A DNA stretch of 64,000 nt from positions 5,224,649 through 5,288,648 of the forward strand of contig OX578142.1 of NCBI GenBank assembly GCA_951213105.1, given 5' to 3'. The stretch is from Amaurobius ferox. Taxonomy: Eukaryota > Arthropoda > Arachnida > Araneae > Amaurobiidae. A program made the position numbers and the translations under genes. Shown here piece by piece: positions 1 through 58,502 of this stretch. Every line of letters starts with the position of its first letter. Position 1 is the stretch's first letter. The notes below the pieces were generated by a model. That model had not been told where the DNA came from. It was given only the letters and a program-made list of their open reading frames with translations, and made no database searches.

Positions 1-429
1 AATCCAGCATCCAATTTCCTTTTTCACCCAGTAAAGTGAATCTCAAAAAAGATGGAACTAAGCGCCAATCGGTGCTAAATCACACTTTTGTTTTATTTGC
101 ATTGGATTTGGGAAATCAACAGAAAATAAGAATAATTCAATTACAATATCACCTAAATCAAGCTTCAGATTTCCTTTTTCAGGCAGAAAAGTGAATCTAA
201 AAAAAAATAGAACTATGCGCAAATGAGTTCTAAATCACTCACTCTTCTGTTTTATTTCCATTGGCTATAGGAAATCAACAGAAAATAAGAAAAATTCATT
301 TACAATATCACCCAAATCAAGTTTATGATTTCCGTTTTTAGCCAGAAAAGTGAATCTCAAAATATATGGAATTATGCGCAAATGGGTTCTAAATTACTCT
401 ATAGTTTTTTTGCATTGGAGTTGGGAAAT
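1..429 (+). repeat. ~155-bp satellite monomers, left of element A
   Basis: About 2.7 monomers in direct orientation. Recurrent landmarks are the strings ACAATATCACCCAAATCAAG, GATTTCCTTTTTCAGCCAG, and TTTTATTTGCATTGGATTTG. The last monomer is cut after GGGAAAT at 429 by element A; its AAAT (426-429) is repeated at 2652-2655. No gene seen. Confidence 0.95.
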
Positions 430-849
430 TGTTGTGCTTAGATTCAGAGATTTTCATTTTCTAAGATTTTTAATGTTCAAAATTCATAATTTCCCTCTTC
501 CCTTCAAAATTCAAAATTAATTTATGGTTATTGAATATTTCGGCGATTTATCTCGTATTAACGTTTATTTATTATCCCTTTCATACATTTTTATATTCCA
601 AATTACACACGCGAAGTAGCTACAAACGCTAAATGTATTCATAGAATCCTTTACTTATTCGCCAGTGCCCCTGTAATTTTCCTTTTCGGCCTTACGGCTT
701 CACTTTCGAACGGCAATTATATTCCTCTGAAAGCGAAAAATAACGCTCCTTTTTGACCATTTCATTGCTTATCGGCTGAGTTGATGCGTTTACCAGATGT
801 TTTGGGGTGCCTAAAAATTCCGTAGGGTTGGTGCAACGGAGCAATGAAC

Positions 850-991
850 TTTGGCGGGAAAACGTGGTAGCTAGCTTGGCGGCATTTTCGTGCCGCGCGG
901 TTCGTTGCGAAGTGTCCCTTTTTTTTTATTCCCCGGGGTATGTGAGGCGCTCTGTGTGCGGCGCAAGTTTTTTCACTCGCCAAGATTGGCG
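850..991 (+). promoter_or_regulatory. PCNA-type cell-cycle promoter block of element A
   Basis: TTTGGCGGGAAA at 850-861 is a perfect high-affinity E2F/DP site. TTGGCGGC follows at 876-883. At 978-991 CGCCAAGATTGGCG is a perfect inverted repeat of two TTGGCG half-sites and also contains an inverted CCAAT (ATTGG). PCNA is a classic E2F target in flies and mammals, and these sites lie just upstream of PCNA coding remnants, so this is most simply the promoter of the donor PCNA gene. The block is CpG-rich in an otherwise ~30% GC window. No TATA box or start site can be assigned with confidence. Confidence 0.7.
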
Positions 992-1106
992 TCTCCTGGG
1001 AAGCGAAAATTTGGTTGGCAGGAGAGTTGGATTCTGAGCAGCAGACGAGTGAGGTTGATAAAATTTCTAGGGGCCGAGCCTGGCGCTCGCGCCCCGGGTC
1101 GCCGGT

Positions 1107-1293
1107 AGCTAACGAATTTGGATACTGAGCATCTTGGCATTCCTGAAACTGACTACAGCGTATTAGTAAAAATGCCTGCCTCTGAGTCCAGCGCCTTTGC
1201 AGGGAACTACGTCAAATTGGCGATTCTGTTTCTGCACAAGTTCAACTGTCTTTGTCACCGGATGTTCCATTAGTTATTGAATACAACGTTGAG
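1107..1293 (+). pseudogene. PCNA (sliding clamp) coding fragment, frameshifted and internally deleted
   Basis: From 1109 the frame reads LTN then LDTEHLGIPETDYS and VLVKMPASE, matching the interdomain connector loop of PCNA (about residues 118-135 of the ~260-residue protein) and the start of domain 2. One base is missing after codon GAG (1184-1186). In the shifted frame the match resumes as QRLCRELRQIGDSVS, then jumps about 60 residues to AQVQLSLSPDVPLVIEY near the C-terminus. Homology fades after 1293; a weak LAPKI-like MPTKI in another frame near 1330-1345 may be the last of it. Upstream, 1021-1080 aligns with the N-terminus-like repeat of element B (a decoded R-V-R-L-I-K-F-L-G-A resembles the L-L-K-K-V-L-E-A helix), which is weaker. 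With a frameshift, an internal deletion and most of domain 1 missing, it cannot encode a clamp. Capture with promoter implies a genomic, not mRNA, donor. Confidence 0.85.
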
Positions 1294-1305
1294 AAAAATC
1301 GGCCA

Positions 1306-1773
1306 ATGATTCATCATCAATCGTCATGCCAACAAAGATTGTCCAACAACAATGTTTTTGGGAAGCCTTTCATGCTTCAGAATTCCCATAAGACTTACTG
1401 TCCTTATTGCCGGCCAACTCAAGTATTTACTGTCATCAATTCATCTCATAAATACGTCATTACAGTGATAAATGCATCAGTGATCCCTCTCCACATTTTT
1501 CAGTGTTCCTCAAGTGTTTTGCGGGCCCACACTCGAGAGCTCCGCCGTTATGAGCTGTATTTTATTTTACCGGCCAACTGGAAGCGTTTTGATTTCAACC
1601 GTGTCATTAAATTTTACCAAGTTACATGTGAGAAAGTATTAGCATGTTCCAGAAAGAAAAATGTAAATTTCAATGTAGTTCTGGAAAAAGTTTCAATAGT
1701 AAAGATAGAAAGTGTTACATGTTTTTGCAAGACAACAAATAATAAGTATATTTTTATAAAAAGGTGTATGTAG
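1306..1773 (+). other. 155-codon open frame of unknown status in element A
   Basis: An ATG-initiated frame that continues the reading frame of the C-terminal PCNA fragment without a stop. It is cysteine-bearing (YCPYC near the first third) and basic towards the end, with no domain I recognise. In A' it is cut at 25522 by a TAA-creating change, and A versus A' differences include W to S, P to L and N to Y changes as well as synonymous ones, so there is no clear sign of selection on the protein. It is more likely former 3' UTR or unrelated captured sequence than a gene. Confidence 0.2.
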
Positions 1774-2007
1774 CTTTGTGAGTTTTATCGTTTATGGTGC
1801 TGACATCTAGTGAGAGTGTTTTTAAATATTTCTCTATGATAGAAATTTCACGCAGTAAATGGAGAAACAGTGTTTTCTGTTTACTCTTCCTTTTAAAGAT
1901 GTGAACATATATGTAGAAGGTTTTGTCATTTACAATTTGTGTTTGTTTTTATTAATTTGAGTAATTCATTTAACATTTTTAGTGGTGGACAGCTCAGGCA
2001 GACCAAA

Positions 2008-2027
2008 CTCTGGTCTTCAGACCAGAG
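2008..2027. repeat. 20-bp palindrome (9-bp arms, 2-bp centre)
   Basis: CTCTGGTCT / TC / AGACCAGAG. As RNA it gives an 8-bp stem with a UUCA loop. Identical in all A, A' and B copies in this window. Confidence 0.9.
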
Positions 2028-2186
2028 TGGAATCTGAACCTGGGATTTAAAATTGATAACTGGGTTATTTAATTTGGGTTTTAGTATTTCTTTTCTTATC
2101 ATCGCAATGTACTTTAACTATCCACTATACGAATTATTAGTATTAACAATTTGCAAGATGTTTTTTGTTTGTAAATTTAAAGTGTT

Positions 2187-2192
2187 AATAAA
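2187..2192 (+). terminator. Poly(A) signal AATAAA of element A
   Basis: Canonical AATAAA followed within about 30-65 bases by a T/GT-rich tract (TTTTGTGTTTCTTTGTTGG), the usual arrangement of a cleavage and polyadenylation site on the + strand. Confidence 0.6.
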
Positions 2193-2651
2193 GAAGGTTT
2201 TAGTTTAACATATAATTGAGTTGAGTTTTTCTTTTGTGTTTCTTTGTTGGCTGTGCTCTATTTAATTCTGGGTTAAAGGTAAGTGAAGTTTTAGAGAATT
2301 TGTTGATTGTTAATGATAATTATAAAAGGTAAACAACCAAGAATTATGCACAGGCCAAACTGTAGGAAAAGCAATTAGAAAAAGAAACATTATTAAAATA
2401 AGTTAGGAACTCTAATATTGAAGTGTAATAAGCAATGTAATATTAAATGGTAAAAAAGGAAACAAAGAATATTAATACAGCAAAAAGAAACCTTTATTAA
2501 CTTATATTAAGAGTAAAAATAAAATTAACTTATTTACATTAAAAGAAAAATAAATCTTGGAAGTAAAAGATATAAAAGATAAGTAGTAACTATATTTATT
2601 TATTTTAAAATATACGAAAAATAAAAAAAAACCTTTTTTTTATTCACAACA

Positions 2652-4897
2652 AAATCAACAAAAAATAAAAATTAGTCATTTCCAATATCACCCAAATCAA
2701 GCTTCAGATTTCCTTTTACAACCAGAAATGTGAATGTTAAAAAAGATGGAATTAACCTGAAATGGGTGCTAAATCACTCTTTGGTTTTATTTGCATTGGA
2801 TTTGGGAATTCAACAAAAAATAAAAATTATTCATTTACGATATCACCCAAATCAAGCTTCTGATTTCCTTTTCAGCCAGAAAGGTGAATCTCAAAATATA
2901 TGGAATTAAGCACAAATGGGTTCTAAATTACTCTTTTGTTTTATTTGCATTGGATTTGGGAATTCAACAAAAAATAAAAATTATTCATTTACGATATCAC
3001 CCAAATCAAGCTTCTGATTTCCTTTTCAGCCAGAAATGGGAATTTTAAAAAAGTTGGAATTAACTGCGAATGGGTACTAAATCACTCTTTTGTTTTATTT
3101 GCATTGGATTTGGGAAATTAACAGAAAATAAGAATAATTCATTTTAATATCACCCAAATCCAGCTTCCAATTTCCTTTTTCAGCCAGAAAAGTGAATCTC
3201 AAAAAAGATGGAATTAAGCGCAAATCGGTGCTAAATCACACTTTTGTTATATTTGCATAGGATTTGGGAAATCAGCAAAAATAAGAATAATTCACTTACA
3301 ATATCTCCCAAGTCAAGCTCCAGATTTCCTTTTTGAGCCAGAAAAGTGAATCTCAAAAAGATGGAATTAAGCGCAGATGAGTTCTAAATAACTCTTTTGT
3401 TTTATTTGCATTGGATTTGGAAAATTACTGAAAATAAGAATCATTCATTTACAATATCAACCAAATCAAGCTTCTGATTTCCTTTTTCAGCCAGAAATGT
3501 CAATCTCAAAATATATGGAATTAAGCCATATGGATTCTAAATTGCACTTTTCTTTTATTTGCATTGGATTTGGGAAATTAGCAGAAAATAAGAATAATTC
3601 ATTTTAATATCACCCAAATCCAGCTTCCAATTTCCTTTTTCAGCCAGAAAAGTGTATCTCAAAAAAGATGGAACTAAGCGCAAATCGGTGCTAAATCACA
3701 CTTTTGTTTTATTTGCATTGGATTTGGGAAATCAACAAAAATAAGAATAATTCATATACAATATCTCCCAGGTCAAGCTCCTGATTTCCTTTTTGAGCCA
3801 GAAAAGTGAATCTCAAAAAGATGGAATTAAGCGCAAATGTGTTCTAAAAAACTCTTTTGTTTTATTTGCATTGGAATTGGAAAATTACTGAAAATAAAAA
3901 GCATTCACTTACAATATCACCCAAATCAAGCTTCTGATTTCCTTTTTCAGCCAGAAATGCCAATCTCAAAATATATGGAATTAAGCCAAATGGGTTCTAA
4001 ATTACACTTTTGTTTCATTTGCATTGGATTTGGGAAATTAACAGAAAATAAGAATAATTCATTTTAATATCACCCAAATCCAGCTTCCAATTTCCTTTTT
4101 CATCCAGAAAAGTGAATCTCAAAAAAGATGGAATTAAGCGCATATCGGTGCTAAATCACAATTTTGTTTAATTTGCATTGGATTTGGGAAATTAACAGAA
4201 AATAAGAATAATTCATTTACAATATCTCCCAAGTCAAGTTCCAGATTTCCTTTTTGAGCCAGAAAAGTGAATCTCAAAAAGATGGAATTAAGCGCAGATG
4301 GGTTCTAAATAACTCTTTTGTTTTATTTGCATTGGATATTGAAAATTACTGAAAATAAGAATCATTCATTTACAATATCATCCAATCCGGCTATCCAACT
4401 TGCCGCTCTATATCTTAGGACGAGTCGGCTGGCCTGGGCTTTCGACAATATCATCCAAATACAGTTTATGATTTCCGTTTTTAGACAGAAAGGTTAATCT
4501 CAAAATATATGGAATTAAGCATAAATGGGTTCTAAATTACTCTTTTGTTTTATTTGCACTGGATTTGGGAATTCAACAGAAAATAAAAATAATTCATTTA
4601 CGATATCACCCAAATCAAGCTTCTGATTTCCTTTTTCAGCCAGAAATGTGAATCTTAAAAAAGATGGAATTAACCGCAAATGGGTGTAAATAACTCTTTT
4701 GTTTTATTTGCATTGGATTTGGGAAATTAACAGAAAATAAGAATAATTCATTTTAATATCATCTAAATCCAGCTTCCAATTTCCTTTTTCAGCCAGAAAA
4801 GTGAATCTCAAAAACGATGGAACTAAGAGCAAATCGGTGCTAAATCACACTTTTGTTTTCTTTGCATTGGATTTGGGAAATCAGCAAAAATAAGAAT
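2652..4897 (+). repeat. Satellite block between elements A and B
   Basis: About 14 direct monomers, one interrupted by a 60-bp insert at 4385-4444. The first monomers near element A lack a few bases and carry CAACAAAAAATAAAAATT. The last monomer is cut after AAGAAT at 4897 by element B. Several monomers carry the TTTTTGAGCCAG variant in place of TTTTTCAGCCAG. No gene. Confidence 0.95.
4385..4444 (+). repeat. 60-bp foreign insert, type 1, within a monomer
   Basis: GC-richer sequence (begins ATCCGGCTATCC, ends GGGCTTTCG) flanked by ACAATATCATCCA at 4372-4384 and 4445-4457, i.e. a 13-bp direct repeat. It has no similarity to the monomer, no poly(A) tail and no recognisable RNA fold or domain. 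Long flank duplication suggests a short retro-inserted or repair-inserted fragment. Confidence 0.8.
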
Positions 4898-5311
4898 TGT
4901 TGTGCTTAGATTCAGAGATTTTCATTACCTAAGGTTTTTAAGGTTCAAAATTCATGATTTTCCCCCTTCCCTTCAAAATTAATTTATGGTTATTGAATAT
5001 TTCGGCGATTTATCTCGTATTAACGTTTATTTATTATCCCTTTCATACATTTTTATATTCCAAATTACGCACACGAAGTATCTACAAACGCTAAAAGTAT
5101 TCATAGAATCCTTTACTTATTCGCCTGTGCCCCTGTAATTTTCCTTTTCGGCCTTACGCCTTCACTTTTCGAACAGCAATTATATTACTCTGAAAGCGAA
5201 AAATAACGCTCCTTTTTGACCATTTCATTGCTTATCAGTTGAGTTGATGTTTATTCCAGATCTTTTGGGGTGCCTAAAATTCCGTAGGGTTGGCGCCGCG
5301 GAGCAATGAAC

Positions 5312-5453
5312 TTTGGCGGGAAAAACGGGGTAGCTAGCTTGGCGGCATTTTCGTGCCGCGCGGTTCGTTGCGAAGTGTCCCATTTTTTAATTCCCCAGCG
5401 TATGTGAGGCGCTCTGTGTGCGGCGCAAGTTTTTTCACTCGCCAAGATTGGCG
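5312..5453 (+). promoter_or_regulatory. PCNA-type promoter block of element B
   Basis: E2F site TTTGGCGGGAAA at 5312-5323 and inverted pair CGCCAAGATTGGCG at 5440-5453, in the same spacing as element A. Just upstream B also has TTGGCGCC (5290-5297), an additional E2F-like core that A has lost (A reads TTGGTGCAA), so B looks closer to the donor promoter here. Confidence 0.7.
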
Positions 5454-5480
5454 TCTCCTGGGAAGCGAAATTTGGTTGGC

Positions 5481-5645
5481 ATGTTTGGAGTTCGATTCGG
5501 AGAGTAGAACAGAGAGGTTGAAAAAAAGATTTTGGGGCCGCGGCCGGACCTCACGCTAAGGGGCCGCGGTCGCCGTAAGAATGTTTTGAGTCGGATTCTG
5601 AGCAGTAGAGGAGTGAGGTTGAAAAAGTTTCTTAGGGCCGAGCAT
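5481..5645 (+). pseudogene. Probable PCNA N-terminus remnant, duplicated in tandem (100-bp spacing)
   Basis: ATGTTTGGAGTTCGATTC at 5481 decodes M-F-G-V-R-F, and after an in-frame TAG and small indels reads L-K-K and then I-L-G. This resembles the PCNA start M-F-E-A-R-L followed by L-L-K-K-V-L-E-A. A second diverged copy starts with ATGTTTTGAGTCGGATTC at 5581, exactly 100 bp later, with R-L-K-K-F-L-R-A. The position between E2F sites and the later PCNA fragment supports the reading, but similarity is short and several indels are needed. Confidence 0.4.
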
Positions 5646-5671
5646 AGGGCTCGCGCCCCGGGTCGCCAGTT

Positions 5672-5785
5672 GTAGTGAATATGCCTGCCTCCGAGTTCCA
5701 GCGCATTTTGCAGGGATCCTCGTCAAAATGACAATTCTGCTTCAATTGCCTGTCAGCTAAGGATGGAGTTCGATTTTCTGCAGGT
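5672..5785 (+). pseudogene. PCNA domain-2 fragment with two frameshifts
   Basis: Reads VVN-MPASEFQRI (ATG at 5681), then one extra T at about 5708, then CRDPRQNDNSASIAC, then a missing base near 5754, then AKDGVRFSAG. These match consecutive PCNA segments M-P-S-x-E-F-x-R-I-C-R-D-L and I-S-C-A-K-D-G-V-K-F-S-A-S-G. Unlike element A, the intact F codon and the AKDGVRFSAG stretch are kept, while the connector loop and C-terminal strand are missing. Together A and B show that the progenitor held more of PCNA than either does now. Confidence 0.8.
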
Positions 5786-5799
5786 GCTGCCTGCACCAG

Positions 5800-5952
5800 A
5801 AGTGTCTGTCTACAAGTTCCGTATTTTCAGTGCTCGCAGTTAGTTCTTGATGTTGCTCCCAAGCGTCTGTGTACAAGCTTCATTCCACAAAAGTAGCGAT
5901 ATCCGTTGTTCATAATGTTTCTCCTAAGTGTCTGCCTACAAGTTGGTATCAC
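5800..5952 (+). repeat. Three degenerate copies of AAGYGTCTGYSTACAAG in element B
   Basis: Copies at 5800-5816, 5861-5877 and 5936-5952 (spacings 61 and 75 bp). The last two share extra upstream similarity (TGTTGCTCCC / TGTTTCTCCT). Absent from element A. Function unknown. Confidence 0.6.
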
Positions 5953-6516
5953 CTAGGCGGAATGCCGTCAAAAGTGAAATTCCGTCCTACTGCCAGCATT
6001 GATCAAAAGTGGCATTCGACTGCCGTCTATGTGCCCGGCTACAATTCATCGGTGTGTTTACGTACAACCTTCAGGTTCCTGAAGGGATTGGAACCTTGCC
6101 TCCTTCATAAGTGCTTTTTCCATGCAACCAGTCTCCTTTGGTTTTAAATGTGTTGTACAAATGCATCTTGTTTGCACACTGTTATTGGGTTTGGTGCTGC
6201 CATCTATATTCACCAACTAGAATCTTTGCTGCTCAATTGATAATTATTGTTATAGTAAGAGCTGCGACGGCATTTTAATCATTTTATCTGTGGTGAATTC
6301 CTTTCGATACGGACAGCTTCGTTTTCTTTTTTTGTACCTTTGAGAATAATAATGATTTTGATACATGTACCAATTGGGAGTTTACATTTTACCATTTAGT
6401 GTTTGCTTTTATTATTCTGAATTTTGTAATTTTATCATTCACAATTTGTGTTTGGTTTTATTATTTTGAATTATTTATTTAACATTTTTAGTGGTGGACA
6501 GCTCAGGCAGACCAAA

Positions 6517-6536
6517 CTCTGGTCTTCAGACCAGAG
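6517..6536. repeat. 20-bp palindrome in element B
   Basis: Same sequence as at 2008-2027; preceded by the same acceptor-like TTTTTAG and followed by the same short open stretch. Confidence 0.9.
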
Positions 6537-6550
6537 TGGAATCTGAACCT

Positions 6551-6663
6551 GGGATTTAATCTGATAACTGGGAATCATATTAATAACTGGGATTTAATCT
6601 GATAACTGGGAATTATATTAATAACTGGGATTTAAAATTGATAACTGGGTTATTTAATCTGGG
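6551..6663 (+). repeat. 38-bp tandem repeat, ~3 copies
   Basis: GGGATTTAAT... units start at 6551, 6589 and 6627; each of the first two contains CTGATAACTGGGAA. Element A has only the third unit, so this is a B-lineage expansion. Confidence 0.8.
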
Positions 6664-6787
6664 TTTTAATATTTCTTTTCTTATCATCGCAATGTACTAA
6701 CTTTAATTTTCCACTATACGATACTTTAAATTTAGCAAATTGGAAGGTGTTTAAATTTTATAACTTTTGTTTGTTTTTGAAAGTGTT

Positions 6788-6793
6788 AATAAA
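6788..6793 (+). terminator. Poly(A) signal AATAAA of element B
   Basis: AATAAA followed by a GT/T-rich tract and then, at 6864-6872, the splice-donor string AAGGTAAGT, as in element A. Confidence 0.6.
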
Positions 6794-8857
6794 GCAAGTT
6801 TTAGTTTAACATATAAATGAGTTGAGTTTCCTTGTTGGCTGTGCTCTGTTTAATTCTGGGTTAAAGGTAAGTGAAGTTTTGAGAGAATTTGTTGATTGTT
6901 GATGATAAGTATAAAAGGTAAACAACCAAGAAATATGCACAGGCCAAAAACACTGTAGGAAATGCAATTTAGAAAAAGAAACATTAGAATAAGTTAGAAG
7001 CAAAGAATATTAATACATATTTAGAAACTTTATTATCTTATATTAAAAGAAAAAGAAATCTTTAACTTATATAAAAAAGAAACCTAAATCAACTTATATT
7101 TACTTTAGAAGCAAATAAAGAAAAATAAATAAAATAATGCTTATTATTCACAACAGAATAATTCATTTACAATATCTCCCAAGTCAAGCTCCGGATTTCC
7201 TTTTTGAGACAGAAAAGTGAATCTCAAAAAGATGGAATTAAGCGCAGATGGGTTCTAAATAACTCTTTTGTTTTATTTGCATTGGATTTGGAAAATTACT
7301 GAAAATAAGAATAATTCATTTACAATATCACCCAAATCAAGCTTTTGATTTCCTTTTTCACCCAGTAAAGTGAATCTCAAAAAAGATGGAACTAAGCGCC
7401 AATCGGTGCTAAATCACACTTTTGTTTTATTTGCATTGGATTTGGGAAATCAAAACAAAATAAGAATAATTCATTTACAATATCTCCCAAATCATTCTTC
7501 CGATTTCCTTTTAGAATAAGAAAAGTGAATTTAAAAGATGGAATTAAGCGCAAATGGGTACAAAATCTCTCTTTTGTTTTATTTGAATTGGATTTGGAAA
7601 ATTACTGAAAATAAGAATCATTCATTTACAATATCACCCAAATCCAGTTTATGATTTCCGTTTTTAGCCAGAAAGGTGAATCTCAAAATATATGGAATTA
7701 AGCCAAATGGGTTCTAAATAACTCTTTTCTTTTATTTGCATTGGGTTTGGGAAATTAACAGAAAATAAGAATAATTCATTTTAATATCACCCAAATCCAG
7801 CGCTTCCAATTTCCTTTTTCACCCAGTAAAGTGAATCTCAAAAAAGATGGAACTAAGCGCAAATCGGTGCTAAAACACACTTTTGTTTTATTTGCATTGG
7901 ATTTGGGAAATCAACAGAAAATAAGAATAATTCAATTACAATGTCACCTAAATCAAGCTTCAGATTTCCTTTTTCAGCCAGAAAAGTGAATCTCAAAAAA
8001 GATAGAATTATGACTCACTCTTCTGTTTTATTTCCATTGGCTATAGGAAATCAACAGAAAATAAGAAAAATTCATTTACAATATCACCCAAATCAAGCTT
8101 CTGAATTTCTTTTTTCAGCCAGAAATATAAATCTCAAAATATTTGGAAGCCCAAATGGGTTCTAAATTACTCTTTTGTTTTATTTGCATTGGCTTTGGGA
8201 AATCAACAGAAAATAAGAAATTTCATTTCCAATATCACCCAAATCAAGCTTCAGATTTCCTTTTACAGCCAGAAATGTGAATCTTAAAAAAGATGGAATG
8301 AACCGCAAATGGGTGCTAAATCACTCTTTTGTTTTATTTGCATTGGATTTGGGAAATTAACAGAAAATAAGAATAATTCATTTTAATATCACCCAAATCC
8401 AGCTTCCAATTTCCTTTTTTCAGCAAGAAAAGTGAATCTCAAAAAAGATGGAATTAACCGCAAATGGGTGCTAAATCACACTTTTGTTTTATTTGCATTG
8501 GATTTGGGAAATCAACAGAAAATAAGAATAATTCAATTACAATATCACCTAAATCAAGCTTCTGATTTCCTTTTTCAGCCAGAAATATGAATCTGAAAAA
8601 AGATGGAATTAACCACAAATGGGTGCTAAATCACACTTTTGTTTTATTTGCATTGGATTTGGGAAATCAACACAAAATAAGAATAATTCATTTACAATAT
8701 CTCCCAAATCATTCTTCTGATTACCTTTTGGAGCAAGAAAACTGAATTTAAATGATGGAATTAAGCGCAAATGGGTTCTAAATAACTCTTTTGTTTTATT
8801 TGCATTGGATTTGGAAAATTACTGAAATTAAGAATCATTCATTTACAATATCATCCA

Positions 8858-22450: not shown

Positions 22451-24684
22451 AGCTCCGGATTTCCTTTTTGAGCCAGAAAAGTGAATCTCAAAAAGATGGA
22501 ATTAAGCGCAGATGGGTTCTAAATAACTCTTTTGTTTTATTTGCATTGGATTTGGAAAATTACTGAAAATAAGAATCATTCATTTACAATATCACCCAAA
22601 TCAAGCTTTTGATTTCCTTTTTCAGCCAGAAATGTCAATCTCAATATATATGGAATTAAGCCAAATGGGTTCTAAATAATCTTTTCTTTTATTTGCATTG
22701 GATTTGGGAAATTAACGAGAAATAAGAATAATTCATTTTAATATCACCCAAATCCAGCTTCCAATTTCCTTTTTCACCCAGTAAAGTGAATCTCAAAAAA
22801 GATGGAACTAAGCGCCAATCGGTGCTAAATCACACTTCTGTTTTATTTGCATTGGATTTGGGAAATCAACAGAAAATAAGAATAATTCAATTACAATATC
22901 ACCTAAATCAAGCTTCAGATTTCCTTTTTCAGCTAGAAAAGTGAATCTCAAAAAAGATAGAATTATGCGCAAATGAGTTCTAAATCACTCACTCTTCTGT
23001 TTTATTTAGATTGGCTATGGGAAATCAACAGAAAATAAGAAAAATTCATTTACAATATCACCCAAATATAGTTTATGATTTCCGTTTCTAGATAGAAAAG
23101 TGAATCTCAAAATATATGGAATTAAGCGCAAATGGGTTCTAAATTACTCTTTTGTTTTATTTGCATTGGAATTGCGAAATCAAGAGAAAATAAAAATCAT
23201 TCATTTATGATATCACACAAATCAAGCTTCAGATTTCCTTTTTCAGCCAGAAAAGTGAATCTCAAAAAAGATAGAATTATACGCAAATGAGTTCTAAGTC
23301 ACTCACTCTTCTGTTTTATTTCCATTGGCTATAGGAAATCAACAGAAAATAAGAAAAATTCATTTACAATATCACCCAAATAAAGTTTATGATTTCCGTT
23401 TCTAGCCAGAAAAGTGAATCTCAAAATATATGGAATTAAGCGCAAATGGGTTCTAAATTACTCTTTTGTTTTATTTGCATTGGAATTGCGAAATCAAGAG
23501 AAAAAAAAATCATTCATTTATGATATCACACAAATCAAGCTTCAGATTTCCTTTTTCAGCCAGAAATGTGAATCTGGAAAAAGATGGAATTAACCGCAAA
23601 TGGGTGTTAAATCACACTTTTGTTTTATTTGCATTTGATTTGGGAAATCAACAAAAATAAGAATAATTCATTTACAATTTCTCCCAGGTGAAGCTCCTGA
23701 TTTCCTTTTTGAGCCAAAAAAGTGATTCTCAAAAAGATGGAATTAAGCGCAAATGTGTTCTAAATAACTCTTTTGCTTTATTTGCATTGGAATTGGAAAA
23801 TTACTGAAAATAAGAATCATTCTCTTACAATATCACCCAAATCAAGCTTCTGATTTCCTTTTTCAGCCAGAAATGTCAATCTCAAAATATATGGAATTAA
23901 ACCAAATGGATTCTAAATTACACTTTTCTTTTATTTGAATTGGATTTGGAAAATTAACAGAAAATAAGAATAATTCTATTTAATATAACCCAAATCCAGC
24001 GCTTCCAATTTCCTTTTTCACCCAGTAAAGTGAATCTCAAAAAAGATGGAACTAAGCGAAAATCGGTGCTAAATCACACTTTTGTTTTATTTGCACTGGA
24101 TTTGGGAAATCAACAGAAAATAAGAATAATTCAATTACAATATCACCTAAATCAAGTTTATGATTTCCGTTTTTAGCCAGAAAAGTGAATCTCAAAATAT
24201 ATGGAATTATGCGCAAATGGGTTCTAAATTACTCTATAGTTTTTTTGCATTGGAGTTGGGAAATTGTTGTGCTTAGATTCAGAGATTTTCATTTTCTAAG
24301 ATTTTTAATGTTCAAAATTCATAATTTCCCCCTTCCCTTCAAAATTCAAAATTAATTTATGGTTATTGAATATTTCGGCGATTCATCTCGTATTAACGTT
24401 TATTTATTATCCCTTTCATACATTTTTATATTCCAAATTACACACGCGAAGTAGCTACAAACGCTAAATGTATTCATAGAATCCTTTACTTATTCGCCAG
24501 TGCCCCTGTAATTTTCCTTTTCGGCCTTACGGCTTCACTTTCGAACGGCAATTATATTCCTCTGAAAGCCAAAAATAACGCTCCTTTTTGACCATTTCAT
24601 TGCTTATCGGCTGAGTTGATGCTTTTACCAGATGTTTTGGGGTGCCTAAAAATTCCGTAGGGTTGGTGCAACGGAGCAATGAAC

Positions 24685-24827
24685 TTTGGCGGGAAAACGT
24701 GGTAGCTAGCTTGGCGGCATTTTCGTGCCGCGCGGTTCGTTGCGAAGTGTCCCTTTTTTTTTTATTCCCCGGGGTATGTGAGGCGCTCTGTGTGCGGCGC
24801 AAGTTTTTTCACTCGCCAAGATTGGCG
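24685..24827 (+). promoter_or_regulatory. PCNA-type promoter block of element A'
   Basis: TTTGGCGGGAAA at 24685-24696 and CGCCAAGATTGGCG at 24814-24827, both unchanged despite drift elsewhere in the element. Confidence 0.7.
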
Positions 24828-24942
24828 TCTCCTGGGAAGCGAAAATTTGGTTGGCAGGAGAGTTGGATTCTGAGCAGCAGACGTGTGAGGTTGATAAAAT
24901 TTCTAGGGGCCGAGCCTGGCGCTCGCGCCCCGGGTCGCCGGT

Positions 24943-25129
24943 AGCTAACGAATTTGGATACTGAGCATCTTGGCATTCCTGAAACTGACTACAGCGTATT
25001 AGTAAAAATGCCTGCCTCTGAGTCCAGCGCCTTTGCAGGGAACTACGTCAAATTGGCGATTCCGTTTCTGCACAAGTTCAACTGTCTTTGTCACCGGATG
25101 TTCTATTAGTTATTGAATACAACGTTGAG
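24943..25129 (+). pseudogene. PCNA fragment in element A'
   Basis: Same broken structure as at 1107 (shared 1-bp deletion after MPASE, shared internal deletion), plus a P to L change in the DVPLVIEY segment. The shared lesions show that decay preceded the A/A' duplication. The following open frame stops at 25522, eleven codons earlier than in A. Confidence 0.85.
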
Positions 25130-25843
25130 AAATATCGGCCAATGATTCATCATCAATCGTCATGCCAACAAAGATTGTCCAACAACAATGTTTTTGGGAA
25201 GCCTTTCATGCTTCAGAATTCCCATAAGACTTACTGTCCTTATTGCCGGCCAACTCAAGTGTTTACTGTCATCAATTCATCCCATAAATACGTCATTACA
25301 GTGATAAATGCATCAGTGATCCCTCTCCACATTTTTCAGTGTTCCTCAAGTGTTTTGCGGGCCCACACTCGAGAGCTCCGCCGTTATGAGCTGTATTTTA
25401 TTTTACCGGCCAACTCGAAGCGTTTTGATTTCAACCGTGTCATTAAATTTTACCAAGTTACATGTGAGAAAGTATTAGCATGTTCCAGAAAGAAAAATGT
25501 AAATTTCAATGTAGTTCTATAAAAAGTTTCAATAGTAAAGATAGAAAGTGTTACATGTTTTTACAAGACAACAAATAATAAGTATATTTTTATAAAAAGG
25601 TGTATGTAGCTTTGTGAGTTTTATCGTTTATGGTGCTGACATCTAGTGAGAGTGTTTTTAAATATTTCTCTATGATAGAAATTTCACGCAGAAAATGGAG
25701 AAACAGTGTTTTCTGTTTACTCTTCCTTTTAAAGATGTGAACATATATGTAGAAGGTTTTGTCATTTACAATTTGTGTTTGTTTTTATTAATTTGAGTAA
25801 TTCATTTAACATTTTTAGTGGTGGACAGCTCAGGCAGACCAAA

Positions 25844-25863
25844 CTCTGGTCTTCAGACCAGAG
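25844..25863. repeat. 20-bp palindrome in element A'
   Basis: Identical to the copy at 2008. Confidence 0.9.
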
Positions 25864-26022
25864 TGGAATCTGAACCTGGGATTTAAAATTGATAACTGGG
25901 TTATTTAATTTGGGTTTTAGTATTTCTTTTCTTATTATCGCAATGCACTTTAACTATCCACTATACGAATTATTAGTATTAACAATTTGGAAGATGTTTT
26001 TTGTTTGTAAATTTAAAGTGTT

Positions 26023-26028
26023 AATAAA
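26023..26028 (+). terminator. Poly(A) signal of element A'
   Basis: AATAAA with the same downstream T/GT-rich tract as in A. Confidence 0.6.
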
Positions 26029-27760
26029 GAAGGTTTTAGTTTAACATATAATTGAGTTGAGTTTTTCTTTTGTGTTTCTTTGTTGGCTGTGCTCTATTTA
26101 ATTCTGGGTTAAAGGTAAGTGAAGTTTTAGAGAATTTGTTGATTGTTAATGATAATTATAAAAGGTAAACAACCAAGAATTATGCACAGGCCAAACTGTA
26201 GGAAAAGCAATTAGAAAAAGAAACATTATTAAAATAAGTTAGGAACTCTAATATTGAAGTGTAATAAGCAATGTAATATTAAATGGTAAAAAAGGAAACA
26301 AAGAATATTAATACACCAAAAGAAACCTTTATTAACTTATATTAAGAGTAAAAATAAAATTAACTTATTTACATTAAAAGAAAAATAAATCTTGGAAGTA
26401 AAAGATATAAAAGATAAGTAGTAACTATATTTATTTATTTTAAAATATACGAAAAATGAAAAAAAAAGCTTTTTTTTATTCACAACAAAATCAACAAAAA
26501 ATAAAAATTTGTCATTTCCAATATCACCCAAATCAAGCTTCAGATTTCCTTTTACAACCAGAAATGTGAATGTTAAAAAAGATGGAATTAACTGCAAATG
26601 GGTGCTAAATCACTCTTTGGTTTTATTTGCATTGGATTTGGGAATTCAACAAAAAATAAAAATTATTCATTTACGATATCACCCAAATCAAGCTTCTGAT
26701 TTCCTTTTCAGCCAGAAAGGTGAATCTCAAAATATATGGAATTAAGCACAAATGGGTTCTAAATTACTCTTTTGTTTTATTTGCATTGGATTTAGGAATT
26801 CAACAAAAAATAAAAATTATTCATTTACGAAATCACCCAAATCAAGCTTCTGATTTCCTTTTCAGCCAGAAATGGGAATTTTAAAAAAGTTGGAATTAAC
26901 TGCGAATGGGTGCTAAATCACTCTTTTGTTTTATTTGCATTGGATTTGGGAAATTAACAGAAAATAAGAATAATTCATTTTAATATCACCCAAATTCAGC
27001 TTCCAATTTCCTTTTTCAGCCAGAAAAGTGAATCTCAAAAAAGATGGAATTAAGCGCAAATCGGTGCTAAATCACACTTTTGTTATATTTGCATAGGATT
27101 TGGGAAATCAGCAAAAATAAGAATAATTCACTTACAATATCTCCCAAGTCAAGCTCCAGATTTCCTTTTTGAGCCAGAAAAGTGAATCTCAAAAAGATGG
27201 AATTAAGCGCAAATGTGTTCTAAAAAACTCTTTTGTTTTATTTGCATTGGAATTGGAAAATTACTGAAAATAAAAAGCATTCACTTACAATATCACCCAA
27301 ATCAAGCTTCTGATTTCCTTTTTCAGTCAGAAATGCCAATCTCAAAATATATGGAATTAAGCCAAATGGGTTCTAAATTACACTTTTGTTTCATTTGCAT
27401 TGGATTTGGGAAATTAACAGAAAATAAGAATAATTCATTTTAATATCACCCAAATCCAGCTTCCAATTTCCTTTTTCATCCAGAAAAGTGAATCTCAAAA
27501 AAGATGGAATTAAGCGCATATCGGTGCTAAATCACAATTTTGTTTAATTTGCATTGGATTTGGGAAATTAACAGAAAATAAGAAAAATTTATTTACAATA
27601 TCTCCCAAGTCAAGTTCCAGATTTCCTTTTTGAGCCAGAAAAGTGAATCTCAAAAAGATGGAATTAAGCGCAGATGGGTTCTAAATAATTCTTTTGTTTT
27701 ATTTGCATTGGATATTGAAAATTACTGAAAATAAGAATCATTCATTTACAATATCATCCA

Positions 27761-28300: not shown

Positions 28301-29448
28301 GCTCCGGATTTCCTTTTTGAGCCAGAAAAGTGAATCTCAAAAAGATGGAATTAAGCTCAGATGGGTTCTAAATAACTCTTTTGTTTTATTTGCATTGGAT
28401 TTGGAAAATTACTGAAAATAAGAATCATTCATTTACAATATCACCCAAATCAAGCTTCTGATTTCCTTTTTCAGCCAGAAATGTCAATCTCAATATATAT
28501 GGAATTAAGCCAAATGGGTTCTAAATAATCTTTTCTTTTATTTGCATTGGATTTGGGAAATTAACGGAAAATAAGAATAATTCATTTTAATATCACCCAA
28601 ATCCAGCATCCAATTTCCTTTTTCACCCAGTAAAGTGAATCTCAAAAAAGATGGAACTAAGCGCCAATCGGTGCTAAATCACACTTTTGTTTTATTTGCA
28701 TTGGATTTGGGAAATCAACAGAAAATAAGAATAATTCAATTACAATATCACCTAAATCAAGCTTCAGATTTCCTTTTTCAGGCAGAAAAGTGAATCTAAA
28801 AAAAAATAGAACTATGCGCAAATGAGTTCTAAATCACTCACTCTTCTGTTTTATTTCCATTGGCTATAGGAAATCAACAGAAAATAAGAAAAATTCATTT
28901 ACAATATCACCCAAATCAAGTTTATGATTTCCGTTTTTAGCCAGAAAAGTGAATCTCAAAATATATGGAATTATGCGCAAATGGGTTCTAAATTACTCTA
29001 TAGTTTTTTTGCATTGGAGTTGGGAAATTGTTGTGCTTAGATTCAGAGATTTTCATTTTCTAAGATTTTTAATGTTCAAAATTCATAATTTCCCTCTTCC
29101 CTTCAAAATTCAAAATTAATTTATGGTTATTGAATATTTCGGCGATTTATCTCGTATTAACGTTTATTTATTATCCCTTTCATACATTTTTATATTCCAA
29201 ATTACACACGCGAAGTAGCTACAAACGCTAAATGTATTCATAGAATCCTTTACTTATTCGCCAGTGCCCCTGTAATTTTCCTTTTCGGCCTTACGGCTTC
29301 ACTTTCGAACGGCAATTATATTCCTCTGAAAGCGAAAAATAACGCTCCTTTTTGACCATTTCATTGCTTATCGGCTGAGTTGATGCTTTTACCAGATGTT
29401 TTGGGGTGCCTAAAAATTCCGTAGGGTTGGTGCAACGGAGCAATGAAC

Positions 29449-29590
29449 TTTGGCGGGAAAACGTGGTAGCTAGCTTGGCGGCATTTTCGTGCCGCGCGGT
29501 TCGTTGCGAAGTGTCCCTTTTTTTTTATTCCCCGGGGTATGTGAGGCGCTCTGTGTGCGGCGCAAGTTTTTTCACTCGCCAAGATTGGCG
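29449..29590 (+). promoter_or_regulatory. PCNA-type promoter block, element A copy 2
   Basis: E2F site at 29449-29460 and inverted TTGGCG pair at 29577-29590; unchanged from copy 1. Confidence 0.7.
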
Positions 29591-29705
29591 TCTCCTGGGA
29601 AGCGAAAATTTGGTTGGCAGGAGAGTTGGATTCTGAGCAGCAGACGAGTGAGGTTGATAAAATTTCTAGGGGCCGAGCCTGGCGCTCGCGCCCCGGGTCG
29701 CCGGT

Positions 29706-29892
29706 AGCTAACGAATTTGGATACTGAGCATCTTGGCATTCCTGAAACTGACTACAGCGTATTAGTAAAAATGCCTGCCTCTGAGTCCAGCGCCTTTGCA
29801 GGGAACTACGTCAAATTGGCGATTCTGTTTCTGCACAAGTTCAACTGTCTTTGTCACCGGATGTTCCATTAGTTATTGAATACAACGTTGAA
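29706..29892 (+). pseudogene. PCNA fragment, element A copy 2
   Basis: As at 1107, with the additional 1-bp loss at its end (GTTGAAAAAATCGG for GTTGAGAAAAATCGG). This uncouples the PCNA frame from the downstream open frame, which here stands alone at 29904-30371. Confidence 0.85.
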
Positions 29893-29903
29893 AAAATCGG
29901 CCA

Positions 29904-30371
29904 ATGATTCATCATCAATCGTCATGCCAACAAAGATTGTCCAACAACAATGTTTTTGGGAAGCCTTTCATGCTTCAGAATTCCCATAAGACTTACTGTC
30001 CTTATTGCCGGCCAACTCAAGTATTTACTGTCATCAATTCATCTCATAAATACGTCATTACAGTGATAAATGCATCAGTGATCCCTCTCCACATTTTTCA
30101 GTGTTCCTCAAGTGTTTTGCGGGCCCACACTCGAGAGCTCCGCCGTTATGAGCTGTATTTTATTTTACCGGCCAACTGGAAGCGTTTTGATTTCAACCGT
30201 GTCATTAAATTTTACCAAGTTACATGTGAGAAAGTATTAGCATGTTCCAGAAAGAAAAATGTAAATTTCAATGTAGTTCTGGAAAAAGTTTCAATAGTAA
30301 AGATAGAAAGTGTTACATGTTTTTGCAAGACAACAAATAATAAGTATATTTTTATAAAAAGGTGTATGTAG
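29904..30371 (+). other. 155-codon open frame, element A copy 2
   Basis: Same ATG frame as 1306-1773, unaffected by the upstream deletion. Unknown status; probably non-coding. Confidence 0.2.
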
Positions 30372-30605
30372 CTTTGTGAGTTTTATCGTTTATGGTGCTG
30401 ACATCTAGTGAGAGTGTTTTTAAATATTTCTCTATGATAGAAATTTCACGCAGTAAATGGAGAAACAGTGTTTTCTGTTTACTCTTCCTTTTAAAGATGT
30501 GAACATATATGTAGAAGGTTTTGTCATTTACAATTTGTGTTTGTTTTTATTAATTTGAGTAATTCATTTAACATTTTTAGTGGTGGACAGCTCAGGCAGA
30601 CCAAA

Positions 30606-30625
30606 CTCTGGTCTTCAGACCAGAG
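30606..30625. repeat. 20-bp palindrome
   Basis: Element A copy 2; identical to 2008-2027. Confidence 0.9.
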
Positions 30626-30784
30626 TGGAATCTGAACCTGGGATTTAAAATTGATAACTGGGTTATTTAATTTGGGTTTTAGTATTTCTTTTCTTATCAT
30701 CGCAATGTACTTTAACTATCCACTATACGAATTATTAGTATTAACAATTTGCAAGATGTTTTTTGTTTGTAAATTTAAAGTGTT

Positions 30785-30790
30785 AATAAA
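30785..30790 (+). terminator. Poly(A) signal, element A copy 2
   Basis: AATAAA plus downstream T/GT-rich tract. Confidence 0.6.
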
Positions 30791-31249
30791 GAAGGTTTTA
30801 GTTTAACATATAATTGAGTTGAGTTTTTCTTTTGTGTTTCTTTGTTGGCTGTGCTCTATTTAATTCTGGGTTAAAGGTAAGTGAAGTTTTAGAGAATTTG
30901 TTGATTGTTAATGATAATTATAAAAGGTAAACAACCAAGAATTATGCACAGGCCAAACTGTAGGAAAAGCAATTAGAAAAAGAAACATTATTAAAATAAG
31001 TTAGGAACTCTAATATTGAAGTGTAATAAGCAATGTAATATTAAATGGTAAAAAAGGAAACAAAGAATATTAATACAGCAAAAAGAAACCTTTATTAACT
31101 TATATTAAGAGTAAAAATAAAATTAACTTATTTACATTAAAAGAAAAATAAATCTTGGAAGTAAAAGATATAAAAGATAAGTAGTAACTATATTTATTTA
31201 TTTTAAAATATACGAAAAATAAAAAAAAACCTTTTTTTTATTCACAACA

Positions 31250-33495: not shown

Positions 33496-33909
33496 TGTTG
33501 TGCTTAGATTCAGAGATTTTCATTACCTAAGGTTTTTAAGGTTCAAAATTCATGATTTTCCCCCTTCCCTTCAAAATTAATTTATGGTTATTGAATATTT
33601 CGGCGATTTATCTCGTATTAACGTTTATTTATTATCCCTTTCATACATTTTTATATTCCAAATTACGCACACGAAGTATCTACAAACGCTAAAAGTATTC
33701 ATAGAATCCTTTACTTATTCGCCTGTGCCCCTGTAATTTTCCTTTTCGGCCTTACGCCTTCACTTTTCGAACAGCAATTATATTACTCTGAAAGCGAAAA
33801 ATAACGCTCCTTTTTGACCATTTCATTGCTTATCAGTTGAGTTGATGTTTATTCCAGATCTTTTGGGGTGCCTAAAATTCCGTAGGGTTGGCGCCGCGGA
33901 GCAATGAAC

Positions 33910-34051
33910 TTTGGCGGGAAAAACGGGGTAGCTAGCTTGGCGGCATTTTCGTGCCGCGCGGTTCGTTGCGAAGTGTCCCATTTTTTAATTCCCCAGCGTA
34001 TGTGAGGCGCTCTGTGTGCGGCGCAAGTTTTTTCACTCGCCAAGATTGGCG
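33910..34051 (+). promoter_or_regulatory. PCNA-type promoter block, element B copy 2
   Basis: E2F site at 33910-33921 and inverted pair at 34038-34051; extra TTGGCGCC just upstream. Confidence 0.7.
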
Positions 34052-34078
34052 TCTCCTGGGAAGCGAAATTTGGTTGGC

Positions 34079-34243
34079 ATGTTTGGAGTTCGATTCGGAG
34101 AGTAGAACAGAGAGGTTGAAAAAAAGATTTTGGGGCCGCGGCCGGACCTCACGCTAAGGGGCCGCGGTCGCCGTAAGAATGTTTTGAGTCGGATTCTGAG
34201 CAGTAGAGGAGTGAGGTTGAAAAAGTTTCTTAGGGCCGAGCAT
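34079..34243 (+). pseudogene. Probable PCNA N-terminus remnant, tandem pair, element B copy 2
   Basis: Counterpart of 5481-5645; same in-frame stop and indels. Confidence 0.4.
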
Positions 34244-34269
34244 AGGGCTCGCGCCCCGGGTCGCCAGTT

Positions 34270-34383
34270 GTAGTGAATATGCCTGCCTCCGAGTTCCAGC
34301 GCATTTTGCAGGGATCCTCGTCAAAATGACAATTCTGCTTCAATTGCCTGTCAGCTAAGGATGGAGTTCGATTTTCTGCAGGT
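34270..34383 (+). pseudogene. PCNA domain-2 fragment, element B copy 2
   Basis: Counterpart of 5672-5785 with the same two frameshifts. Confidence 0.8.
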
Positions 34384-35114
34384 GCTGCCTGCACCAGAAG
34401 TGTCTGTCTACAAGTTCCGTATTTTCAGTGCTCGCAGTTAGTTCTTGATGTTGCTCCCAAGCGTCTGTGTACAAGCTTCATTCCACAAAAGTAGCGATAT
34501 CCGTTGTTCATAATGTTTCTCCTAAGTGTCTGCCTACAAGTTGGTATCACCTAGGCGGAATGCCGTCAAAAGTGAAATTCCGTCCTACTGCCAGCATTGA
34601 TCAAAAGTGGCATTCGACTGCCGTCTATGTGCCCGGCTACAATTCATCGGTGTGTTTACGTACAACCTTCAGGTTCCTGAAGGGATTGGAACCTTGCCTC
34701 CTTCATAAGTGCTTTTTCCATGCAACCAGTCTCCTTTGGTTTTAAATGTGTTGTACAAATGCATCTTGTTTGCACACTGTTATTGGGTTTGGTGCTGCCA
34801 TCTATATTCACCAACTAGAATCTTTGCTGCTCAATTGATAATTATTGTTATAGTAAGAGCTGCGACGGCATTTTAATCATTTTATCTGTGGTGAATTCCT
34901 TTCGATACGGACAGCTTCGTTTTCTTTTTTTGTACCTTTGAGAATAATAATGATTTTGATACATGTACCAATTGGGAGTTTACATTTTACCATTTAGTGT
35001 TTGCTTTTATTATTCTGAATTTTGTAATTTTATCATTCACAATTTGTGTTTGGTTTTATTATTTTGAATTATTTATTTAACATTTTTAGTGGTGGACAGC
35101 TCAGGCAGACCAAA

Positions 35115-35134
35115 CTCTGGTCTTCAGACCAGAG
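35115..35134. repeat. 20-bp palindrome
   Basis: Element B copy 2. Confidence 0.9.
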
Positions 35135-35148
35135 TGGAATCTGAACCT

Positions 35149-35261
35149 GGGATTTAATCTGATAACTGGGAATCATATTAATAACTGGGATTTAATCTGA
35201 TAACTGGGAATTATATTAATAACTGGGATTTAAAATTGATAACTGGGTTATTTAATCTGGG
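35149..35261 (+). repeat. 38-bp tandem repeat, element B copy 2
   Basis: Counterpart of 6551-6663. Confidence 0.8.
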
Positions 35262-35385
35262 TTTTAATATTTCTTTTCTTATCATCGCAATGTACTAACT
35301 TTAATTTTCCACTATACGATACTTTAAATTTAGCAAATTGGAAGGTGTTTAAATTTTATAACTTTTGTTTGTTTTTGAAAGTGTT

Positions 35386-35391
35386 AATAAA
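35386..35391 (+). terminator. Poly(A) signal, element B copy 2
   Basis: AATAAA plus downstream GT/T-rich tract. Confidence 0.6.
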
Positions 35392-53282: not shown

Positions 53283-53425
53283 TTTGGCGGGAAAACGTGG
53301 TAGCTAGCTTGGCGGCATTTTCGTGCCGCGCGGTTCGTTGCGAAGTGTCCCTTTTTTTTTTATTCCCCGGGGTATGTGAGGCGCTCTGTGTGCGGCGCAA
53401 GTTTTTTCACTCGCCAAGATTGGCG
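53283..53425 (+). promoter_or_regulatory. PCNA-type promoter block, element A' copy 2
   Basis: E2F site at 53283-53294 and inverted pair at 53412-53425. Confidence 0.7.
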
Positions 53426-53540
53426 TCTCCTGGGAAGCGAAAATTTGGTTGGCAGGAGAGTTGGATTCTGAGCAGCAGACGTGTGAGGTTGATAAAATTT
53501 CTAGGGGCCGAGCCTGGCGCTCGCGCCCCGGGTCGCCGGT

Positions 53541-53727
53541 AGCTAACGAATTTGGATACTGAGCATCTTGGCATTCCTGAAACTGACTACAGCGTATTAG
53601 TAAAAATGCCTGCCTCTGAGTCCAGCGCCTTTGCAGGGAACTACGTCAAATTGGCGATTCCGTTTCTGCACAAGTTCAACTGTCTTTGTCACCGGATGTT
53701 CTATTAGTTATTGAATACAACGTTGAG
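53541..53727 (+). pseudogene. PCNA fragment, element A' copy 2
   Basis: Counterpart of 24943-25129. The downstream frame stops at 54120. Confidence 0.85.
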
Positions 53728-54441
53728 AAATATCGGCCAATGATTCATCATCAATCGTCATGCCAACAAAGATTGTCCAACAACAATGTTTTTGGGAAGC
53801 CTTTCATGCTTCAGAATTCCCATAAGACTTACTGTCCTTATTGCCGGCCAACTCAAGTGTTTACTGTCATCAATTCATCCCATAAATACGTCATTACAGT
53901 GATAAATGCATCAGTGATCCCTCTCCACATTTTTCAGTGTTCCTCAAGTGTTTTGCGGGCCCACACTCGAGAGCTCCGCCGTTATGAGCTGTATTTTATT
54001 TTACCGGCCAACTCGAAGCGTTTTGATTTCAACCGTGTCATTAAATTTTACCAAGTTACATGTGAGAAAGTATTAGCATGTTCCAGAAAGAAAAATGTAA
54101 ATTTCAATGTAGTTCTATAAAAAGTTTCAATAGTAAAGATAGAAAGTGTTACATGTTTTTACAAGACAACAAATAATAAGTATATTTTTATAAAAAGGTG
54201 TATGTAGCTTTGTGAGTTTTATCGTTTATGGTGCTGACATCTAGTGAGAGTGTTTTTAAATATTTCTCTATGATAGAAATTTCACGCAGAAAATGGAGAA
54301 ACAGTGTTTTCTGTTTACTCTTCCTTTTAAAGATGTGAACATATATGTAGAAGGTTTTGTCATTTACAATTTGTGTTTGTTTTTATTAATTTGAGTAATT
54401 CATTTAACATTTTTAGTGGTGGACAGCTCAGGCAGACCAAA

Positions 54442-54461
54442 CTCTGGTCTTCAGACCAGAG
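54442..54461. repeat. 20-bp palindrome
   Basis: Element A' copy 2. Confidence 0.9.
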
Positions 54462-54620
54462 TGGAATCTGAACCTGGGATTTAAAATTGATAACTGGGTT
54501 ATTTAATTTGGGTTTTAGTATTTCTTTTCTTATTATCGCAATGTACTTTAACTATCCACTATACGAATTATTAGTATTAACAATTTGGAAGATGTTTTTT
54601 GTTTGTAAATTTAAAGTGTT

Positions 54621-54626
54621 AATAAA
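54621..54626 (+). terminator. Poly(A) signal, element A' copy 2
   Basis: AATAAA plus downstream T/GT-rich tract. Confidence 0.6.
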
Positions 54627-58490: not shown

Positions 58491-58502
58491 AAAAATCGGC
58501 CA

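Follow-up and report, generated by a model that had tools for sequence, protein, structure and literature searches.

The DNA examined here is a 64-kb window from the genome of the spider Amaurobius ferox (contig OX578142.1, positions 5,224,649 to 5,288,648), in which an AT-rich satellite is interrupted by eight units of ~2.2 kb that carry a CpG-rich block with an E2F-consensus site and, downstream of it, broken pieces of the gene for the replication clamp PCNA (Table 1). We propose that these units are solo long terminal repeats (LTRs) of a young spider retrotransposon family, presumably of Ty3/Gypsy type and resembling the large retrotransposon derivatives (LARDs), with pieces of PCNA mRNA in its LTRs. 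We put the probability of this reading at about 0.93.

All eight units open with TGTTGTG and seven close with CACAACA, the end of the eighth lying outside the window. A 4-bp target duplication surrounds them, AAAT in the case of the units designated A and B and GAAT in that of the units designated C. Removal of one GAAT restores an empty site that is 99.3% identical to the satellite monomer over 136 nt with no gaps, and removal of one AAAT gives a site 91.7% identical to the satellite over 133 columns with one gap. With the unit ends fixed, both 4-bp repeats would be expected by chance with a probability of ~5e-5. Because A and B are 99.1% identical (0.9% different), have common flanks (98% over 800 nt on the right) and share AAAT, they represent a single insertion that was later duplicated. 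The eight units are two independent insertions (A/B and C), one of them later duplicated. The whole arrangement recurs with a period of 28.6 kb, and an alignment of copies over 28,598 nt has 8 mismatches and one gap. Among the block matches listed, no C unit lies 28.6 kb before the first or after the last of the three; the 28.6-kb block is present in two to three copies in this assembly and, unless further copies were collapsed during assembly, is not part of a long homogeneous higher-order array.

Table 1. Features of the 64-kb window. CDS, coding sequence.
Feature	Position	Strand	Remarks
AT-rich satellite, ~155-bp monomer	1..429		Insertion target, also between units; repeat analysis
Unit B, solo LTR	430..2651	+	TGTTGTG...CACAACA, AAAT on both sides; same LTR in full elements elsewhere
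U3 CpG-rich block of unit B	836..1017	+	E2F-consensus site 850-861, CTTGGCGGC 875-883, CGCCAAGATTGGCG 978-991
PCNA mRNA piece in unit B	1107..1232	+	Host CDS nt 350-476, 92%; exon 3/exon 4 junction intronless
PCNA piece in unit B	1226..1273	+	Host CDS nt 659-706 (end of exon 5), 90%; protein similarity on to 1296
Stable, conserved hairpin	1980..2060	+	5' of poly(A) signal; z -3.45, 1 of 200 shuffles equally good
AATAAA, then GT-rich stretch (75% G+T)	2187..2192	+	Also at 6788 and 26023
Unit C, separate solo LTR	4898..7155	+	GAAT on both sides
PCNA piece in unit C	5673..5789	+	Host CDS nt 407-520, 85%
Unit A, same insertion as B	24265..26487	+	AAAT; duplicated with flank
Unit B, second 28.6-kb copy	29029..31249	+	Ends and target duplication
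Unit C, second 28.6-kb copy	33496..35753	+	Ends and target duplication
Unit A, second 28.6-kb copy	52863..55085	+	Ends and target duplication
Unit B, third (partial) copy	57627..59848	+	Ends and target duplication
Unit C, third copy, truncated by window end	62095..64000	+	TGTTGTG start

A search of the 3.56-Gb assembly with the CpG-rich block returned 957 first-look candidates, of which the 40 top-scoring were scored and fewer were fetched. All 40 scored candidates matched, and many occur in same-strand pairs 5.2-6.1 kb apart. Direct LTRs were found in all seven pairs fetched (L009-L015). They are mostly ~2.1 kb long, and their main aligned stretches are ~97-99.9% identical; L011, which is rearranged, has additional stretches with identities as low as 83%, and one short stretch of L009 is at 87%. 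The interior between the paired LTRs is ~3.5 kb, for a total of 7.9-8.1 kb in the three elements spanned end to end. Target duplications (CTTC, GTTC and GTAC) flank the three elements whose outer ends both give CACAACA, and a primer-binding-like TGGTGCCGTTCACC (ttTGGTGCCGTTCACC) adjoins the 5' LTR in all four elements with that end located. No open reading frame (ORF) of 120 amino acids was found in the six interiors analyzed, and Pfam gave no family above its cut-off for the 10 ORFs scanned out of the 16 of at least 55 amino acids listed in L012. The term LARD, in the extract of PMC2533021 available, denotes an LTR element longer than 4 kb in which transposable element proteins are absent, and elements of this family are of that description. 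The unit ends, the AATAAA and the GT-rich stretch also agree with the published consensus TGTTRNR...YNYAACA for LTRs with AATAAA and a GT-rich stretch, as excerpted from PMC3601003. The 5' end agrees with the Mag A motif TGTTRKR, and the longer 3' Mag motif agrees only partly; a Mag-like Ty3/Gypsy affinity would be a lead only. The full elements are a young family of non-autonomous copies, and the window holds its solo LTRs.

Similarity to PCNA was located by tblastn of the units with a database PCNA (P0018), which matched 1109-1186 together with 1189-1230 (E 4e-13) and 1228-1296 (E 2e-5) in unit B, and 5669-5782 (E 2e-4) in unit C. When five PCNAs were used, the satellite gave nothing below E 2, and all matches below E 1 fell inside units. 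Among PCNA chains of the PDB, 26 residues matched at E 5.5e-7 and the later A/B frame at E 0.006. The later A/B frame also matched Pfam PCNA_C at E 0.001, under the curated cut-off, and the unit C frames alone had no match in PDB or Pfam.

The host PCNA gene, which bears introns, is located at C16:143388-143395 kb (L028, L052). Its protein matches Stegodyphus mimosarum PCNA at 99% over 97 residues and five other PCNAs at 86-89%. Exon junctions lie at CDS nt 221, 319, 387, 532 and 706. The introns that separate the first five exons measure 929, 72, 2463 and 2012 nt; the last exon was not found in 12.5 kb of locus sequence. The LTR pieces run through these junctions: CDS 115-519 is intronless across three of them in L017, L018, L019, L020, L025 and L027, CDS 350-706 across two in L016, and CDS 514-706 is likewise continuous in L023 and L067, such that junctions 221, 319, 387 and 532 are joined without an intron in various LTR copies. 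Since the pieces cross host exon junctions without introns, their source was spliced PCNA mRNA, and an mRNA origin is well supported. The pieces diverge by ~4-19% from host PCNA.

Association of PCNA pieces with the LTRs was close in both directions. The 27 block-selected loci contain 34 LTR blocks, and 32 of these have PCNA within 500 nt on their 3' side; one LTR (L015/L049) is counted twice, which makes it 31 of 33 distinct blocks. Searching the genome with PCNA protein gave 1158 first-look candidates, of which 146 were scored, and 148 matches including the exons of the gene. All 28 non-gene PCNA places examined carry the CpG or the hairpin LTR block, and in 26 of them fewer than 300 nt separate PCNA from the end of a CpG block upstream; no free PCNA retrocopy was found among the 28. 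The fragment is in sense orientation, ~90-240 nt 3' of the U3 block, and is followed by a type-specific stretch, the hairpin, the poly(A) signal and U5.

The stretch from PCNA to the hairpin (1233-1920, 688 nt, against 5744-6429, 686 nt) shows no detectable similarity between the two LTR types, and other LTR types carry different sequence again at this place among the junction rows listed. It is possibly other captured material. Just 3' of the hairpin, at 6549-6643, CTGGGATTTAATCTGATAA-like repeats spaced by 19 nt are expanded in C.

The E2F-consensus 12-mer TTTGGCGGGAAA occurs exactly on the plus strand at 850, 5312, 24685, 29449, 33910, 53283, 58047 and 62509, with ~0.02 copies expected from the dinucleotide frequencies of the window. 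All matches in the 64 kb to TTT[CG][CG]CGC, which we take to be the E2F consensus, coincide with these eight sites. The ratio of observed to expected CpG is 1.22 over 836-1108, which includes the inverted pair CGCCAAGATTGGCG of unit B. An earlier note on this DNA had described a 28.6-kb repeat with three plus-strand units, each combining an E2F site, an inverted pair, broken PCNA coding sequence and a poly(A) signal. The repeat is real, the E2F-consensus site, the inverted pair and AATAAA co-occur as described, and tblastn with PCNAs detected broken PCNA coding sequence in the units (A/B as well as C) and, below E 2, none in the satellite. The inverted ends and target duplications that bound the units are absent from the note. 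Its remark that the blocks are intact and the coding parts wrecked in every copy stands as an observation, TTTGGCGGGAAA being exact in 8 of 8; selective keeping of the block is unsupported. Eight intact blocks cannot show conservation, since only two insertions lie behind them. Between C and A/B, 6 of 180 sites changed in the block and 27 of 398 in the flank (p = 0.12). Among 21 non-redundant LTRs, drawn from 58 block sequences that include the reference, 12 have an intact 12-mer and 9 a changed one, and 20% of U3 windows equal or exceed the 12-mer in conservation. On the flank comparison and the nine changed copies, special conservation of the E2F block was rejected.

The upstream region of host PCNA gave no blastn match to the CpG-rich block at E 1e-3. 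The best E values over 3 kb upstream were 0.28 and 0.87, no better than those of 50 simulated sequences (best 0.006, median 0.25). The host promoter holds an E2F-like site of its own, ATTGGCGGGAAT (TTGGCGGGAA core), located 124 nt upstream of the ATG. Capture of the PCNA promoter was rejected, as the host upstream sequence is unlike the block beyond this short E2F-like core, and from the dissimilarity we infer that the E2F site belongs to the U3 of the LTR. An E2F-timed LTR promoter is plausible by analogy with the telomeric retrotransposons of Drosophila, described in PMC11698117 as targets of E2F1-Dp.

Several points weigh against the reading of the units as LTRs of one PCNA-carrying family. 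The searches sampled top-scoring copies, and the shares of LTRs with PCNA hold for those and not for divergent subfamilies. The block stands without adjoining PCNA in L042 and in one LTR of L011. L009 as cut shows no target duplication, L014 and L015 are unreadable in this respect, and L011 lay outside that analysis. Neither reverse transcriptase nor gag was detected in the copies examined, nor was an autonomous partner. The superfamily (Ty3/Gypsy) is presumed from the LTR ends, and transcription, its start site and E2F binding are predictions. In L042, after position 710, the CpG block has neither PCNA nor a hairpin beside it.

A history that would account for the locus begins with reverse transcription, in which a template switch onto spliced PCNA mRNA would have brought in the PCNA fragments. 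The transcription start may lie within the CpG block or close to it, possibly with E2F control in proliferating cells, and an autonomous relative may provide gag-pol in trans. Two LTR elements would have inserted into the satellite, and recombination would have deleted their interiors. One LTR was then duplicated (A to B), and the 28.6-kb block was recently tandemly repeated two to three times.

It is conceivable, if on balance unlikely, that the LTR-borne fragments were or are translated from methionines 40, 119 and 199 and aid the element during S phase, for instance as clamp fragments able to bind the partners of PCNA. The first PCNA position in 57 loci, which include the window units and are not all independent, falls at 115-118 (15 loci), 124 (13), 348-350 (18), 407 (4), 514 (2) and 592 (5). 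Judged by the junction rows listed, classes 124 and 407 appear to derive from classes 115 and 350. The recurrent starts at 115, 350 and 592 lie 3-5 nt before the in-frame ATGs at 118, 355 and 595, as translation would favor, with a chance probability of ~0.001 for three of four starts near an ATG or 0.005 for three of six, both post hoc; the start at 514 has no ATG nearby. In the 115-519 type, fixed changes are 13 silent to 12 replacing (p 0.006) and private changes 9 to 34, which is neutral-looking, a hint from the sequences of past protein constraint in that type. The fixed changes include host-branch ones. Group-specific changes are 6 to 5 in the 115-519 type and 6 to 9 over five types (p 0.2), and the nearness of the latter to the neutral expectation weakens the case for a protein function. 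Of the other four types, two are marginal (p 0.03 and 0.03) and two show no significant bias (p 0.12 and 0.60). Of 25 pieces compared with the host, 19 have a ratio of nonsynonymous to synonymous divergence (dN/dS) of 0.29-0.58 and six a ratio of 0.7-1.2; three of these six are of the 115-337 type. Stops occur in 9 of the 25 and frameshifting gaps in 18, six pieces have neither, and the copies in the window are broken.

Two further observations concern reading frames. By eye, L018 and L020 have an upstream ATG in frame with the PCNA piece in the 115-type leader, near oriented 1460-1510, and the piece in this region itself begins GCCATGG among the junction rows listed. In unit B, a stop-free frame of 195 codons (1186-1773) is entered in the PCNA frame and extends far past PCNA. 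None of 2000 order-1 simulated sequences of 1018-1950 reached this length, and 0 to 6 of 1000 simulations were as long as the part after PCNA. A period-3 signal is absent (276 of 1000 simulated sequences scored as high), and the frame ends at 166 codons in A. In a protein search it matched PCNAs only (13 proteins), no NCBIfam family was above cut-off for it, and its predicted fold has a mean predicted local distance difference test score (pLDDT) of 32.

A wider conjecture, to which we give slightly less credence than to translation, is that the LTR serves as a reusable capture slot beside the promoter. PCNA would be taken up or reshuffled there repeatedly and cut so that an internal ATG comes first, and E2F-timed clamp fragments or PCNA-like RNA would help the element with replication or with evasion of silencing in S phase. 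Trees of the PCNA pieces, in which host PCNA is one of the tips and nothing serves as outgroup, are compatible with a single capture or with several. If true, the use of replication-clamp pieces by a retrotransposon would be a new strategy. An action at the RNA level is rather improbable taken by itself: sense PCNA sequence could make small-RNA silencing of the element costly, or could seed small RNAs against PCNA. The fragments are sense and promoter-proximal in the loci examined, and different PCNA segments occupy the same slot in a young, multiplied family, as such a role would suggest, but the divergence of the pieces from host PCNA limits cross-matching, and passenger sequence accounts for the data without a function.

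Capture of PCNA by a non-autonomous DNA transposon, Pack-TYPE-like or Ginger-like with TGTTGTG inverted ends, is very improbable. The short terminal inverted repeat and the 4-bp duplications would suit it, and Ginger elements begin TGTNR and give 4-bp target duplications (PMC2836005). According to the same source, however, Ginger terminal inverted repeats measure ~40-270 or 50-180 bp and the targets are CCGG/CCGT or RTATAY, unlike the 7-bp inverted end and the targets AAAT, GAAT, CTTC, GTTC and GTAC seen here. The PCNA pieces are intronless, and the direct 2.1-kb repeats around a 3.5-kb interior with a primer-binding-like site are arranged as in LTR elements; on these paired direct LTRs the transposon was disfavored. 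Least probable of all is the proposal of the earlier note that the satellite itself acquired PCNA along with the E2F promoter of that gene and multiplied the two: the units do lie inside satellite and recur every 28.6 kb, and the host promoter has its TTGGCGGGAA core, but inverted ends, target duplications with restored empty sites, paired LTRs and the same units genome-wide outside the block identify an LTR family as the carrier, the element spreads intronless pieces across the genome where the satellite block adds two to three copies of one stretch, and the host-locus alignment, which the note had set as a refuting check, shows no similarity beyond the E2F-like core.

The LTR retrotransposon family favored here can be set beside known systems. 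LARDs are best known from plants. They share with the spider family long LTRs, a primer-binding-like site and an interior without gag-pol; a host gene fragment inside the LTR is not mentioned for them in the excerpt of PMC2533021. Bdelloid rotifer LTR elements also carry extra, sometimes host-related, coding sequence, which in the extract of PMC5408684 takes the form of ORF3s of enzyme or envelope type. The spider family has broken fragments of a replication gene in the LTR instead, differing by subfamily at one slot. The non-LTR elements HeT-A, TART and TAHRE resemble it as retrotransposons with an E2F link to G1-S transcription. Theirs is founded on experimental E2F1-Dp evidence in the available part of PMC11698117, and that of the spider LTRs on a motif, intact in 12 of 21. 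Processed PCNA pseudogenes are likewise intronless copies of PCNA mRNA, unlike the spider pieces, each of which, at the 28 places examined, comes with LTR sequence. Mouse mammary tumor virus also has coding sequence in its LTR, in that case for an LTR-encoded protein from a viral ORF of known function, where the spider LTRs hold mostly broken fragments of host PCNA. No published description of this PCNA-carrying family was found in a partial literature search. An element that loads a core replication gene into its LTR is unusual.

PCNA fragments in LTRs, at more than 100 scored places and ~1150 first-look candidates in one genome and a recently active family, bear on how LTR elements take up host sequence by template switching onto spliced mRNA and on why one and the same gene keeps turning up, cut at preferred points. 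They are also relevant to the way in which a host escapes small-RNA or dominant-negative interference when its genome has so many near-copies of PCNA. For annotators, PCNA matches in such genomes can be LTR fragments.

Some minor observations were made on the surroundings of the units. Rfam gave no match up to E 1 across 1-9000 of the window. Two exact unit pieces were not found in IMG/VR, nor was one exact piece in GTDB contigs. Around the window, at 5.20-5.63 Mb (G000:C7), several further pieces or copies of the family occur in both orientations. The satellite segments 9084-15500 and 17847-24264, of 6.4 kb each and 8.76 kb apart, are 94.7% identical and form a nested segmental duplication within the 28.6-kb block. 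The satellite is also broken by a GC-rich segment of ~59 bp in 17 copies (4386-4444, 8859-8917 and 15 more), mostly 1.9-4.5 kb apart, and these segments sit between copies of ACAATATCAT.

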